Below are positions 6,960-11,056 of a DNA stretch of 64,000 nucleotides, one piece after another. The notes under the pieces were generated by a model. It was not told where the DNA came from. It searched no databases and saw nothing but the letters and a program-made list of their open reading frames with translations. The stretch lies in the NCBI GenBank assembly GCA_947475165.1, contig CANJLD010000001.1, positions 1 through 64,000 of the forward strand. The letters run 5' to 3'. The stretch comes from Bacteroidota bacterium. Lineage in GTDB: Bacteria > Bacteroidota > Bacteroidia > Chitinophagales > LD1. Every line of letters starts with the position of its first letter. The stretch's first letter is position 1. Both the position numbers and the translations under genes were made by a program.

Positions 6960-7086
6960 TTAATTAATTGATTTATGTGCTACTTCATTGAGCTTTTCTG
7001 TAAATTGATGTGGAAGAAATACATCATCTAAATATGATGTTAAAATTACTTCAGAAAGAACTTCTTTATAATTTTGAAGTATAATC
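6960..7086 (-). other. coding-like remnant next to REP hairpin, not assigned
   Basis: On the minus strand, from the REP hairpin to a TAA at 6960-6962, one frame reads as a convincing protein end (IILQNYKEVLSEVI, then LDDVFLPHQFTEKLNEVA). It has no start codon of its own unless translation runs from inside the RAYT gene through the REP, which looks artificial. It may be the 3' remnant of a gene broken by the RAYT/REP insertion. I do not recognise the family. Confidence 0.35.
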
Positions 7087-7090
7087 CGCT

Positions 7091-7149: not shown

Positions 7150-7677
7150 TTAATACACCGCCAATTCAAGCAATCCTTTTCTGTTACCATAATAATCGCC
7201 ACAACTACTTAATAAATATTCTTCTTTCTTTTCTACTATACCTGCCCTTACCGGGTTTTGATGAATGTAATTCAATTTAGTTTTAAAAAAAGCTTCTGTA
7301 AATATTGCTTCTCCATGATAACCCTCTTCCCAAAACCATATTTTATCTTCCTTTTTAAACAACCAAAGCAACCAATTTTTTCTGCTTTCTCTCGAATTTT
7401 CACCGATGGCATTTACAACTTTTGTGGCGGTATATTTTTTAAAATCTCTGATAATATCGCTTAACGGTGTTTGGTTGCTTTGGATAATAAGGTGAACATG
7501 GTTGCTCATAATTACCCAACCGTAAATGAGCAGACCTTTTTCCTTTTGGCAAAATTTTAAACTGTTTATCAGAATATCAGAATAATCACGTCTGGTAAAA
7601 ACATCTGCCCATTGATGAACCGTAAACGTTACGAAGTGTAAGCCATGCTGATCTTTAATGGTATATGCAAATGCCAT
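7150..7677 (-). CDS. REP-associated tyrosine transposase (RAYT, Y1/IS200-like)
   Basis: A 175-residue single-domain HUH transposase. The HUH metal motif is NHVHLI (His60/His62), and the catalytic tyrosine is probably Tyr82 in FKKYTATKV. The N-terminal HFVTFTV strand and the C-terminal NPVRAGIV segment also fit the RAYT family, which nicks at and may spread REP hairpins. The gene is bracketed by REP-like hairpins at 7091, 7700 and 7754, as expected for a REPtron-like unit. Length and motifs are intact, so it may still be active. Confidence 0.9.
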   Translation of the reverse strand: MAFAYTIKDQHGLHFVTFTVHQWADVFTRRDYSDILINSLKFCQKEKGLLIYGWVIMSNHVHLIIQSNQTPLSDIIRDFKKYTATKVVNAIGENSRESRKNWLLWLFKKEDKIWFWEEGYHGEAIFTEAFFKTKLNYIHQNPVRAGIVEKKEEYLLSSCGDYYGNRKGLLELAVY

Positions 7678-7699: not shown

Positions 7700-7742
7700 T
7701 GCCGATTTGCAAACCGCTTAATAGACCGATTGCAAATCGGCA
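7700..7742. repeat. inverted repeat upstream of RAYT
   Basis: TGCCGATTTGCAA (7700-7712) and TTGCAAATCGGCA (7730-7742) are a perfect 13-base inverted repeat with a 17-base loop, starting 23 bases before the RAYT start codon. Confidence 0.9.
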
Positions 7743-7894
7743 ATTATCTGTAAGTTCGAGATGCGCTGCGCTAACATCTCGAACAGCAGGATGTCTGTAT
7801 CATTAATTCTTATAAATCGTTTATTTGTATAGCATAGCCAGTCTATAACATCGCGCGTGGAAATATCTGTTTCCTCTGATAAGACTAATACCAT
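7718..7894 (-). pseudogene. truncated ATP-grasp peptide maturase (GwsG-like, grasp-with-spasm RiPP system)
   Basis: A 58-codon reading frame from the ATG at 7892-7894 to the TAA at 7718-7720. Its first ~34 residues (MVLVLSEETDISTRDVIDWL, then Y, NKRFIRINDTD) match the N-terminus I know from GwsG-type ATP-grasp maturases of Bacteroidota peptide-modification systems. The resemblance stops exactly where the REP hairpin (right arm 7775-7784) begins, and the rest of a normal ~320-residue protein is missing. It follows the DUF6624-like gene by 27 bases on the same strand, which suggests one operon with the double-glycine precursor. Family assignment from a short N-terminus is the main uncertainty. 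Confidence 0.6.
7754..7784. repeat. REP-like hairpin 5' of RAYT
   Basis: GTTCGAGATG (7754-7763) and CATCTCGAAC (7775-7784) form a perfect 10-bp stem. Compared with the hairpin at 7091 one base pair differs on both arms (C-G to G-C), so the pairing is preserved. Confidence 0.9.
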
Positions 7895-7921
7895 TAGCGT
7901 AATTAATAAAAATTCAGTGAT

Positions 7922-8842
7922 TTATTTTGGTAGGGAGTACTCTATACCGTAAAATAATAGATATTCAGTTAAAGGTTCAAGTCCCACCTTTTCTCTCCTT
8001 ATATCTACATTTTTTTCATCTTCGATAGGAAATAATTCATGTTTGTGGGTAAGTGTATTATACCTAACCTGCGAACCATACAATTGCTTTTTGTTTTCGT
8101 TTACTTGGATTCTATCATACATTAAAGCATAACTTTCCCAATCAGCTTGTTTCTGTTCGCAAAGGTTTTTTATAGTAGAAATATACTTTTTTTGAGTATT
8201 CAAATCTGAATGCTGAATAACAAAAAAAGCAGCACGTGCTGCGTCCTTTTTTACATCCGAATTTTTTGGCCAACCATATTTTTTAATCAGTTCTTCTAAC
8301 TCAAAAACACTTTCTTTATTTATTTTTCCTTTTAAATCCCATAACGCAATTACAATTGTGTTTCTTTCGCCTACTTTTTCTTCAGCGAGATTTATTTCTT
8401 TATAATAAGCCTGATCTAATGCTGCTAAATGCCATAGTTTTTCAGCATAATATAAATTACCAAATTTTCCATTTATACTTTCAGTATTCTTTGCAATAAT
8501 TTCTTCTATTTCTTTCCACCTTTTATCACTGTGCAAGTGAATTAGGTTAGGGTCGAAAAGCGTTCCCACTTCAAAAAATCTTCCAACTATTATTTGCAGA
8601 TATTTAAAAGCAGAATCAACCTGACCATCAATAGCGAGCGCACATGCATAATTATATACTTCAAAAATATTTGCTGAATCATATGCATTCATGTTCTTAT
8701 ATAATTCAATAGCACCTCTAATATCGCCAATATCGCTTAAACTATCGGCAATTGAATTAGCTGATAAAACTGTGGTGGGGTCTTGCGCCTTAACATTTGA
8801 GGTATAACTAATTAGTAGACCTATAAACAATAATAGTCTCAT
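7922..8842 (-). CDS. secreted TPR-like protein with DUF6624-like C-terminal domain
   Basis: A 306-residue protein with a signal peptide (MRLLLFIGLLISYTSNVKAQ). Residues about 30-110 look like TPR helices (DIRGAIELYKNM, FEVYNYACALAIDG, VDSAFKYLQI). The C-terminal half carries the block I associate with DUF6624: WESYALMYDRIQVNENKKQLYG, then RYN and RREKVGLEPL near the end. It sits between the double-glycine peptide gene and the truncated maturase gene on the same strand. Whether it works with them is inference. Confidence 0.65.
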   Translation of the reverse strand: MRLLLFIGLLISYTSNVKAQDPTTVLSANSIADSLSDIGDIRGAIELYKNMNAYDSANIFEVYNYACALAIDGQVDSAFKYLQIIVGRFFEVGTLFDPNLIHLHSDKRWKEIEEIIAKNTESINGKFGNLYYAEKLWHLAALDQAYYKEINLAEEKVGERNTIVIALWDLKGKINKESVFELEELIKKYGWPKNSDVKKDAARAAFFVIQHSDLNTQKKYISTIKNLCEQKQADWESYALMYDRIQVNENKKQLYGSQVRYNTLTHKHELFPIEDEKNVDIRREKVGLEPLTEYLLFYGIEYSLPK

Positions 8843-8915
8843 AAATAATAAATGAAAAACTAAATAAAATTAGTTTTTAGTGTAAATCAAGTAATAGGCT
8901 TAACATACGTGAATT

Positions 8916-9179
8916 CTAAAAATTTATTTTTTTAGAACCACTATCTTTAACGATAGGCCCTCCTCCTGCATTAAAGGGAGCTAAACAGTGGTCTTGATAA
9001 CCATAATCTCGATGTCCACCAGAATTATCTTTAGTCCACCAAGAACTGTAATGATCACGACAAGTTACTTGACCGTTAGTTATTGTCCAAGTATCTGGTC
9101 TTCCACCATTTACTTTCTCTGGGTGCTTGAGTTCATCAAATTTGAATTTTTCGAAGATATCTGCTTTTATTGATTCCAT
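8916..9179 (-). CDS. candidate RiPP precursor with double-glycine leader
   Basis: An 87-residue peptide. The first ~26 residues form a charged, amphipathic leader (MESIKADIFEKFKFDEL, then VNGG) ending in Gly-Gly, as in Bacteroidota natural-product precursors cleaved by C39 peptidase transporters. The remaining ~61 residues are rich in Trp, Tyr, His, Gly and Asp and hold two Cys (VTCRDH and DHCLAP). There is no signal peptide. It is the first gene before the DUF6624-like protein and the GwsG-like remnant. The precursor call is inference from leader shape and context. It could also be an unrelated small protein. Confidence 0.55.
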   Translation of the reverse strand: MESIKADIFEKFKFDELKHPEKVNGGRPDTWTITNGQVTCRDHYSSWWTKDNSGGHRDYGYQDHCLAPFNAGGGPIVKDSGSKKINF

Positions 9180-9217: not shown

Positions 9218-9961
9218 TTAATCACACTTACTATCTGGTGCCTCTCCATCAAATATCATTTGCACATTGGGAGTCACCACCGGCCTCTGCGCCCACTTAA
9301 ATATTACCTTACCGGCAGTAAGAACCAAGGCAGAACCTAAGGAAACAACACTTGCAAATTTTCTTCCATCGGTGTTCCATACGTTGGCTTCGCCCATATT
9401 AGGTGCCTGTATTTGTGCAAAGCCTGAGAAGGTGCCAACTACACATGCCGTGTTCCAAAACGGAATATTGGCATAATTAATAGCTGCATTGCTATTAAGG
9501 TAAGTAGCCCAACCCCCGGGGGTGGTAACAATGTTTTTCCAATAGGCATCGTTTACCTGTGCTAAACCTATAGCTGCATAAATAGAAGTTTTAGAAATGG
9601 TATTGATGTCGCTGGTGGTTAACTGCTCCATGCAGGCAGCTAAGAAATCGCCCATACTATCTATACTTTGTTCTTTAATACCGCAAAGCACGGCATCTAC
9701 CATAGATGCCTCAGCACCACCAAAGTTTAGGTTCTGTGCAATTTTAGAATTTACATAATCGTTTACGCTGTTTGCCATACCGGTTATAATAAGCGGCATT
9801 CCCTCGGTTGGCGGAGAGGGCAGGGAGTTGAAATAATCTATAATAGTATCGCTAAGGGCGCTGTAAGTGGGGCTGCCGGGTATGTTGGCTATAATATAAT
9901 CTAAGCCATCGGTAAATAATTGTTCGCCTTCTTTGTAGGGGTTTAAAATTGGAATTGCCAT
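9218..9961 (-). CDS. hypothetical protein
   Basis: A 247-residue protein of unknown family, with no signal peptide. It is rich in Ala, Asn, Ser and Thr. A hydrophobic stretch near the C-terminus (SVVSLGSALVLTAGKVIF) could be a membrane segment or buried helix. Two Cys lie mid-protein, one late and one three residues from the end. It ends 38 bases before the start of the double-glycine peptide and lies on the same strand, so co-transcription is possible. Confidence 0.6.
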   Translation of the reverse strand: MAIPILNPYKEGEQLFTDGLDYIIANIPGSPTYSALSDTIIDYFNSLPSPPTEGMPLIITGMANSVNDYVNSKIAQNLNFGGAEASMVDAVLCGIKEQSIDSMGDFLAACMEQLTTSDINTISKTSIYAAIGLAQVNDAYWKNIVTTPGGWATYLNSNAAINYANIPFWNTACVVGTFSGFAQIQAPNMGEANVWNTDGRKFASVVSLGSALVLTAGKVIFKWAQRPVVTPNVQMIFDGEAPDSKCD

Positions 9962-10110
9962 GTGGTGAGTTTTATTGGTTTAAAAATTTGTTTTCTATTG
10001 GTATTAACCGGTTCCATTCAAGCAAGCATGGCAATCATAAAATCCTTCGGATGATTAAATGAAAGCATATTTTGTGAATGAATGAAATTTTTAAACGGTT
10101 TTTGTTTTAA

Positions 10111-10383
10111 GTATTCCTGTTTTAATTCGAGTTATTCCTGACATACTACGAAGTATTCCTGTTTTAATTCGAAGTATTCCTGACATACTACGAAGTATTC
10201 CTGTTTTAATTCGAAGTATTCCTGACATACTAAGATGTATTCCTGTTTTAATTCGAAGTATTCCTGACATACTACGATGTATTCCTGTTTTAATTCGAAG
10301 TATTCCGGGAATACTTCGGGTAATTCCTGTTTATATTGGAAGTATTCCTGTTTTTACTCAACTAATTCTTGGTTTAATTGCAA
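10111..10383. repeat. 13-copy tandem array of a 21-bp unit
   Basis: Units begin at 10111 and then every 21 bases without exception to 10363. The core is GTATTCCTG. Two variants, GTATTCCTGTTTTAATTCGA and GTATTCCTGACATACTACGA (each plus one A), alternate over most of the array, giving a 42-bp higher-order repeat. The last copies decay. Frames on both strands are open over part of it, but no start codon is in frame, so I read it as non-coding. An inverted copy of the core (CAGGAATAC) follows at 10390. The whole gap 9962-10408 holds nothing else I can name. Confidence 0.92.
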
Positions 10384-10408: not shown

Positions 10409-11056
10409 TCAGTTAACTAATACTAATACAACCTGCGAGTAAGGCGGCACACCCGTATCTTTATTAGTAATTACCTGTTTGCGGCAGTAAATTTTAGTGC
10501 CGGGCAAGGCACCGCTTACCCAGTTAACACTGCTGCGGGTAGATACCACAGCGGTGGTAAAATTAATACCGTTATTGCTGGTTTGAAAAATATAGGAAGC
10601 TACTACACCTCTATCGGCTGCTTTAGAGGCAAAGCGCAGCATACCTTGTGTGTTGGCTACATTGGTTACTGCAAAATCGGGTTTTGTTCTTGGGTTGGCG
10701 GTGCGCACCCGCATACCGCAACCCTGCACAATCTGCCGCGCTGCTTCTTCGTTAGCCGCGCTATCTGCCGCTAACTGCACTTCGGCTTTAAGCATGTTGG
10801 CATCATTTACTACTGCTGCCAGCGAAATGTTGCGCGTAGCGGCTGTGCCTTCGGCACGGGTGCCTGCTGCGGCTTCATCGGCAACCAACGTTGCAATGCG
10901 CCCGTTAATGGCGGTAACCACACCCGCTGCAAGGGTAATATAGGTATTGCCCGGTGCGGTGGTTAGTTTAAGCATAAGTTCCTGCATATCGCTTATAAAC
11001 TGCGATACCTTACGCGAAATAGCGAATACTGCAATGATTCGTTTTTTGTAAGCCAT
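10409..11056 (-). CDS. hypothetical protein with fibronectin-type-III-like C-terminus
   Basis: A 215-residue protein without a signal peptide. The first ~100 residues are helical and rich in Ala (AAAGTRAEGTAATRN, ADSAANEEAARQIVQG). The last ~80 residues (SYIFQTSNNGINFTTAV, STRSSVNWVSGALPGTKIYC, YSQVVLVLVN) look like one Fn3-type beta-sandwich. Similar two-part proteins occur in Bacteroidota. I know no function. It is divergent from the XRE regulator, across a region with repeated operator-like sites. Confidence 0.65.
   Translation of the reverse strand: MAYKKRIIAVFAISRKVSQFISDMQELMLKLTTAPGNTYITLAAGVVTAINGRIATLVADEAAAGTRAEGTAATRNISLAAVVNDANMLKAEVQLAADSAANEEAARQIVQGCGMRVRTANPRTKPDFAVTNVANTQGMLRFASKAADRGVVASYIFQTSNNGINFTTAVVSTRSSVNWVSGALPGTKIYCRKQVITNKDTGVPPYSQVVLVLVN

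Follow-up and report, generated by a model that had tools for sequence, protein, structure and literature searches.

Grasp-with-spasm operons and related graspetide clusters

Graspetides are peptides in which an ATP-grasp enzyme joins Thr, Ser or Lys to Asp or Glu side chains by ATP-driven ester or amide bonds. In grasp-with-spasm operons (TIGR04192/TIGR04193), the ATP-grasp maturase GwsG would bind the leader of the precursor and link Thr, Ser or Lys to Asp or Glu side chains of the core via such ATP-driven bonds, the SPASM protein GwsS would work on that peptide as well, and a C39 peptidase would cleave after Gly-Gly. In the accessible part of a recent survey of graspetide clusters, DUF6624 was reported at high frequency in groups 18, 20, 23 and 42 and SPASM in group 14, and DUF6624 was proposed as a biosynthetic enzyme (Carter et al. 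2026, PMC13097080). An earlier study, again in its accessible part, reported a 'cluster 23' protein in almost all Bacteroidetes branch-5 ATP-grasp loci, which have SPASM enzymes. This protein belongs to a family with no known function, with conserved His and Arg and, in many members, a signal peptide; in these loci a small LPL protein precedes the SPASM gene (2022, PMC8939145). Since the traits described there match, 'cluster 23' and DUF6624 are very probably one family.

Organization of the locus

The window, i.e. the whole stretch of 64,000 nucleotides that was analyzed, carries on its minus strand genes for a 247-aa protein, an 87-aa peptide and a 306-aa protein, then a 58-codon frame, followed by the gene of a RAYT (REP-associated tyrosine transposase) between inverted REPs. 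The features are as follows.

9218..9961, minus strand: gene of the 'MAI' protein (label coined here), 247 aa; heads the conserved order
8916..9179, minus strand: precursor peptide gene, 87 aa; Gly-Gly leader MESIKADIFEKFKFDELKHPEKVNGG; frame intact
7922..8842, minus strand: DUF6624 protein gene, 306 aa; PF20329, 54.1 bits
7718..7894, minus strand: GwsG start, 58 codons, of which codons 1 to about 35 are gwsG-derived and the remainder is REP and element DNA
7744..7789, minus strand: REP, 46-bp hairpin, where GwsG likeness stops
7700..7742, no strand assigned: second hairpin, a 13-bp perfect inverted repeat between REP and RAYT; fold z -6.2
7150..7677, minus strand: RAYT, 175 aa; NF047646
7085..7127, plus strand: second REP, inverted relative to the first; hairpin z -4.0
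6963..7088, minus strand: 42-codon frame, the tail past the second REP, with no NCBIfam or Pfam family match over cut-off

The locus is highly likely to represent the 5' portion of a grasp-with-spasm (graspetide-type) operon that no longer functions. An earlier note on this DNA, made from the sequence alone, had placed three frames here on one strand, which were located as described, on the minus strand, at 9179-8916 (87 aa), 8842-7922 (306 aa) and 7894-7718 (58 aa), and its main point is right. The locus belongs to an established class of operon but is broken.

The 87-aa peptide has a Gly-Gly leader, as the earlier note had it; its core contains Thr, Ser and Asp as well as two Cys. It matches no NCBIfam or Pfam family, precursor models included; its first 42 residues are 52% identical to those of the peptide at the same position in a genome of the same genus, G001, and a peptide also occupies this position in a second one, G010. 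A precursor with a Gly-Gly leader resembling that of G001 thus lies beside the maturase frame. The 306-aa protein, described before as DUF6624-like and secreted, scored 54.1 bits against PF20329 (gathering cut-off 27), and its N-terminal hydrophobic stretch, judged by eye, is a probable signal peptide.

Truncation of gwsG at a RAYT/REP element

The 58-aa frame matched TIGR04192, the grasp-with-spasm ATP-grasp maturase family, over positions 1-51 of 318 with an E-value of 5.3e-8 (32.5 bits), so that the HMM search proposed in the earlier note bears out its reading as the start of a GwsG-type maturase. A full-length ATP-grasp over the TIGR04192 cut-off is absent from the window (32.5 bits vs 230). 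When all six frames of the window were scanned from stop to stop (1803 frames of 20 residues or more), this was the sole GwsG-like frame at E up to 1, found at E 1.1e-9 by a profile built from relatives only, which together with the TIGR04192 value rules out a chance match.

Aligned pairwise with the intact GwsG of G001, the frame shows likeness over residues 1-34 (20/34 identical) and then stops. A lone REP on another contig of the same genome (C5; 46 bp, 97.8% identity) aligns to window positions 7744-7789, so that the edge of the REP falls on base 7789, where codon 36 starts. The claim that the likeness ends exactly at the REP hairpin is accordingly right within 1-2 codons. The profile alignments (TIGR04192 and relatives-only) reach residue 50-51, about 15 residues inside REP-derived sequence; as that DNA is common to the lone REP, this is taken as over-extension. 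gwsG is cut at about codon 35/36, at the REP of a RAYT element. The RAYT scored 110.3 bits against NF047646 (cut-off 80), the first REP hairpin (7744-7789) has a fold z of -3.1, and the exact hairpin pattern occurs in three copies in the genome, two flanking the RAYT and one lone, so that REP hairpins lie both beside the RAYT and elsewhere.

The operon had been described as destroyed by RAYT/REP insertion. The cut at the REP edge stands; a GwsG remainder was found neither on the far side of the element nor elsewhere in the genome. A clean insertion into an otherwise intact operon would account for the pairwise likeness stopping beside the REP edge and for the two inverted REPs flanking the RAYT, but it predicts that the gene continues from codon 36 past base 7085. 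Among the 1803 window frames the stub alone matched the GwsG profile at E 1, with no match past the RAYT and second REP, and the GwsS and C39 profiles matched none. The 42-codon frame at 6963-7088 was considered as the tail of GwsG, GwsS or C39 and rejected, as no gws profile matches it and a comparison with 17 further genomes of the genus gave nothing better than E 0.0975. In the whole genome, a profile search at E 0.001 returned one TIGR04192 match, the stub; no match to the G001 GwsS protein was found at E 1, in a search run without its own positive control, so that a TIGR04193 SPASM maturase is seen neither in the window nor in the genome by this query; and no C39 leader peptidase or transporter (PF03412) was found, in a search that was positive in 8/14 control genomes. 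These results come from a 45-contig draft with a completeness of 99.72%, in which a missing gene could sit in a gap. No DNA match for the operon was obtained in a plasmid collection. The search for a SPASM partner and C39 protein elsewhere in the genome, suggested previously, gave neither.

For the assembly as it stands, clean insertion is thus rejected and is extremely unlikely overall. A misjoin of two distant stretches at the 46-bp REP would make the break an assembly artefact, which the near-identical REP on another contig and the draft state of the assembly (45 contigs) would allow. In that case, however, the rest of GwsG together with GwsS and C39 should lie on other parts of the assembly, where none was found, and G010 has its own truncation with other DNA at the cut, although its contig comprises 3355 bases and ends there; this explanation is very unlikely. 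The RAYT/REP element lies at the break, yet the downstream half of the operon is lost too, and since the missing part of GwsG turns up neither past the element nor in the rest of the genome, insertion by itself does not explain the damage. With no other GwsG, no GwsS and no C39 in the genome, the grasp-with-spasm system of this organism looks dead, and the 87-aa precursor would not be maturable in it, since the rest of gwsG and everything downstream were not found.

One whole and two broken operons in the genus

TIGR04192 was searched at E 0.001 in 30 genomes of the family, the window's own included. A match was present in 5/30, strong and full-length in one, the same-genus G001; the three in genomes other than G001 and the window's own were weaker (52.7, 46.5 and 23.5 bits). 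In G001 the genes run in one direction and encode a relative of the 247-aa protein (39% identical, same position), the precursor, a DUF6624 protein 47% identical to that of the window over 300 residues, GwsG, an LPL-like small protein (a 69-aa frame containing KLPLHYS), GwsS and a C39 peptidase. This is the same order as in the window, made whole by the SPASM partner and the peptidase, which upholds the earlier interpretation of the locus as grasp-with-spasm-type remains. G001 GwsS scored 321.3 bits against TIGR04193 (cut-off 175). G001 GwsG matched TIGR04192 over positions 1-318 of 318 with 206.7 bits, below the cut-off of 230, and therefore even this intact ATP-grasp protein is an outlying member of the family. 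The G001 C39 peptidase (L009 543-1001) is a free-standing domain of 152 aa, unlike the C39 frames of the surveyed loci described below, of which 36/41 measure 729-774 aa, the size of C39 transporters.

The second relative, G010, has on a contig of 3355 bases the end of the 247-aa gene, a Gly-Gly peptide, an uninterrupted DUF6624 frame of 307 aa and the first part of GwsG in a frame of 56 codons, after which other DNA runs to the end of the contig. Its DUF6624 protein scored 26.9 bits against PF20329 (cut-off 27) and 142.9 bits with a local profile. The GwsG stub (L165 3088-3355) matched TIGR04192 weakly, over residues 3-38 (E 0.0036), and the local profile with 25.7 bits (E 5.9e-8 among 153 frames). 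Past the stub, the contig ends in an incomplete frame on the minus strand that could belong to a mobile element; the DNA past the stub had no DNA match in the plasmid collection. Precursor, DUF6624 and GwsG genes are thus together in G001 (whole) and in G010 (broken). A further candidate remnant in the same genus, G017, was rejected: its TIGR04192 match (E 4.1e-5, 23.5 bits) has two internal stops, and none of four local profiles matches any of its 690 frames.

Altogether, this gene order is found in 3/18 genomes of the genus, once whole and twice broken. The two gwsG breaks are a few codons apart, which may be chance, and both leave precursor and DUF6624 frames whole. A RiPP operon that one species has lost is whole in a congener, and a second copy, in another, is broken separately.

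Association of DUF6624 with grasp-with-spasm operons

The occurrence of DUF6624 beside GwsG was surveyed in 396 genomes of the order. At E 1e-20, TIGR04192 gave at least 80 matches in 47/396 genomes, with up to five candidates scored per genome, and 60 stretches around most of these order-wide matches, together with that of G001, were taken, the weakest being partly left out. Local profiles identified 69 GwsG frames of at least 240 bits and at least 600 bases, 55 of them with GwsS downstream within 1.7 kb. Upstream sequence of at least 1.3 kb was available for 49/55 of these GwsG-GwsS loci, and a DUF6624-like gene was present on the same strand within 1.7 kb in 26/49, as counted with a local DUF6624 profile trained on the same frames; in 21/26 it lies directly 5' of GwsG, with a gap of -31 to +36 bases. 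One more weak case brings the count to 27/49, leaving 22 to 23 of 49 loci in which DUF6624 was not found, and on these counts DUF6624 as an obligatory gws part was rejected. PF20329 at E 0.01 matches 18/29 gws-linked proteins (28 of 31 local-profile hits plus that of the window). The position of the gene in the operon varies: at L114 6248-9798, DUF6624 is flanked by a small protein of 77 aa and by GwsS, and not by precursor and GwsG.

In a linkage count with Pfam's own model, which was not trained on these frames, over 32 genomes, picked from the 47 for stronger GwsG matches and with near-duplicate loci of sister genomes included, 15/48 PF20329 places lay within 2 kb of a GwsG (58 GwsG places), where uniform placement expects 0.071. 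DUF6624 is strongly linked to grasp-with-spasm operons, being found beside GwsG about 200 times above uniform placement in these 32 gws genomes, which provides independent numbers for an association published without a function. The other 33/48 copies are farther than 2 kb from every listed GwsG, so that a large part of the family has another task or acts in other places. Likewise, 4 of 22 loci drawn by DUF6624 likeness (that of G001 included) have an adjacent GwsG, and the domain therefore has a wider life.

As a separate observation on the SPASM proteins, 0/48 GwsS frames of at least 300 aa (L009, L042-L101) contain the radical-SAM motif CX3CX2C in the first 220 residues, a count that covers one motif spacing; because of this absence, the surveyed proteins may perhaps not be radical SAM enzymes.

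Structure and possible roles of the DUF6624 protein

The predicted structure of the 306-aa protein is mainly helical (mean pLDDT 88.4). Its N-terminal ~90 residues resemble TPR repeats, the best rows having Z 8-11 and many extending over ~90 residues, possibly a mere common helical arrangement. Foldseek, run with the whole model, had a best E of 0.014 and none at or below 0.001, with TPR-like and helical-repeat rows, and a profile search of solved structures returned TPR chains at about profile positions 20-90; rows for retroviral matrix and hemagglutinin-fusion proteins in the latter were set aside as weak by-matches. Beyond TPR-type repeats the fold search was uninformative for the DUF6624 part, and no function follows from it.

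Three loci encode OmpA-DUF6624 fusions of 614-635 aa directly 5' of GwsG (L042 7894-9801, L045 5571-7415 and L053 5725-7608). OmpA-type domains bind peptidoglycan, and on account of these fusions the DUF6624 domain probably works in the periplasm, after export. The protein would probably be exported and would act there on or against the finished peptide. The fusions make two concrete roles testable, namely late processing and immunity.

The first role, that of a further peptide-processing enzyme, is a tentative possibility with somewhat less than even chances. It was proposed for DUF6624 in one paper and for a family that is very probably identical with it in another, as far as the accessible parts of the two go (PMC13097080, PMC8939145). 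In an alignment of 14 proteins, that of the window included, His211 and Asp243 are invariant and Asp143, Gln144, Arg244, Gln253 and Arg283 nearly so, which is in favour of this role, but the set of invariant residues shifts with the choice of proteins: among 23 drawn by DUF6624 likeness, fragments included, Asp243, Lys277 and Arg283 do not vary, and His211 falls short even of near-invariance, whereas among 29 gws-linked proteins His211 is the one invariant residue. The fold matches beyond TPR-type repeats likewise give nothing on the DUF6624 part, and likely export would place the protein after C39 cleavage.

In the second role, precursor and DUF6624 would still be used, the latter serving in the periplasm for immunity or scavenging and being retained once the maturases are lost, which would make the organism an immune non-producer. 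Both broken operons retain an uninterrupted DUF6624 frame (306 aa in the window, 307 aa in G010), the OmpA fusions of the three loci point to the periplasm, and a majority of DUF6624 copies (the 33/48 above) lie away from GwsG, all of which is consistent with such use. A whole frame is, however, also expected after a recent break, and 22 to 23 of 49 gws loci yielded no DUF6624 gene; continued use is unlikely. We know of no immunity assay for DUF6624. The more specific proposal, that DUF6624 is a periplasmic self-protection or peptide-capture protein of grasp-with-spasm peptides, kept on maturase loss, and that the organisms of the window and of G010 are both immune non-producers, is quite unlikely.

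The 247-aa protein and its neighbours

The 247-aa 'MAI' protein matches no Pfam or NCBIfam family over cut-off. Relatives occur in 11/396 genomes of the order, with three copies in the window's own genome; the protein is lineage-specific and occurs also without gws genes. It was rejected as an obligatory gws part, as 8/11 genomes having a relative are without a GwsG match in the searches of the family and of the order and, among 64 loci searched, that of G001 alone has it. Together with a 215-aa protein it forms a lineage-specific pair (window 9218-9961 and 10409-11056) that recurs on two further contigs of the genome, C10 and C20, and in another genome, G006 (loci L154, L155 and L156). Between the pair in the window lies a tandem array of a 42-base unit in 5.8 copies (10109-10350), and on C10 and C20 the pair is accompanied by repetitive frames of similar appearance. 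In G049 (L162 3034-9425), the genes of a LanC-like protein and a lantibiotic dehydratase are immediately preceded by those of two relatives of the 247-aa protein, so that the family adjoins two kinds of RiPP genes; it might represent a long precursor or a partner. One of these G049 relatives also matches the flagellar hook domain PF22692 (35.7 bits).

Comparison with known systems

With whole grasp-with-spasm systems (TIGR04192/TIGR04193), the locus shares the Gly-Gly precursor, the start of GwsG and the gene order of the whole same-genus copy; it differs in keeping the ATP-grasp start alone, the SPASM protein and C39 peptidase being found nowhere in the genome. The element at the break resembles other RAYT/REP elements in having a RAYT gene between inverted REP hairpins and a lone REP elsewhere, with three exact-pattern copies in this genome as against the usual number of REPs, more than 100 copies as given in the accessible part of the source (PMC2817692).

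The earlier note had suggested that the DUF6624-like protein could be an unrecognised part of such systems. This does not hold, since DUF6624 in graspetide clusters is already in print (PMC13097080), as is what is very probably the same family (PMC8939145), to judge from the accessible parts of both papers; the association of DUF6624 with gws operons is thus not new, and the find is mostly ordinary. Added here are the OmpA-DUF6624 fusions beside GwsG and the whole DUF6624 frames in both broken operons. As described in the accessible part of PMC13097080, graspetide clusters have DUF6624 beside the graspetide synthetase and precursor, as here, with DUF6624 in groups 18, 20, 23 and 42 and SPASM in group 14. 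Traits are also shared with the branch-5 loci of PMC8939145, again as far as its accessible part goes: both are from Bacteroidetes and combine a SPASM enzyme, a secreted protein with conserved His and Arg and an LPL protein (KLPLHYS in G001), whereas 'cluster 23' occurs in almost all branch-5 loci and DUF6624 in 26 to 27 of the 49 GwsG-GwsS loci.
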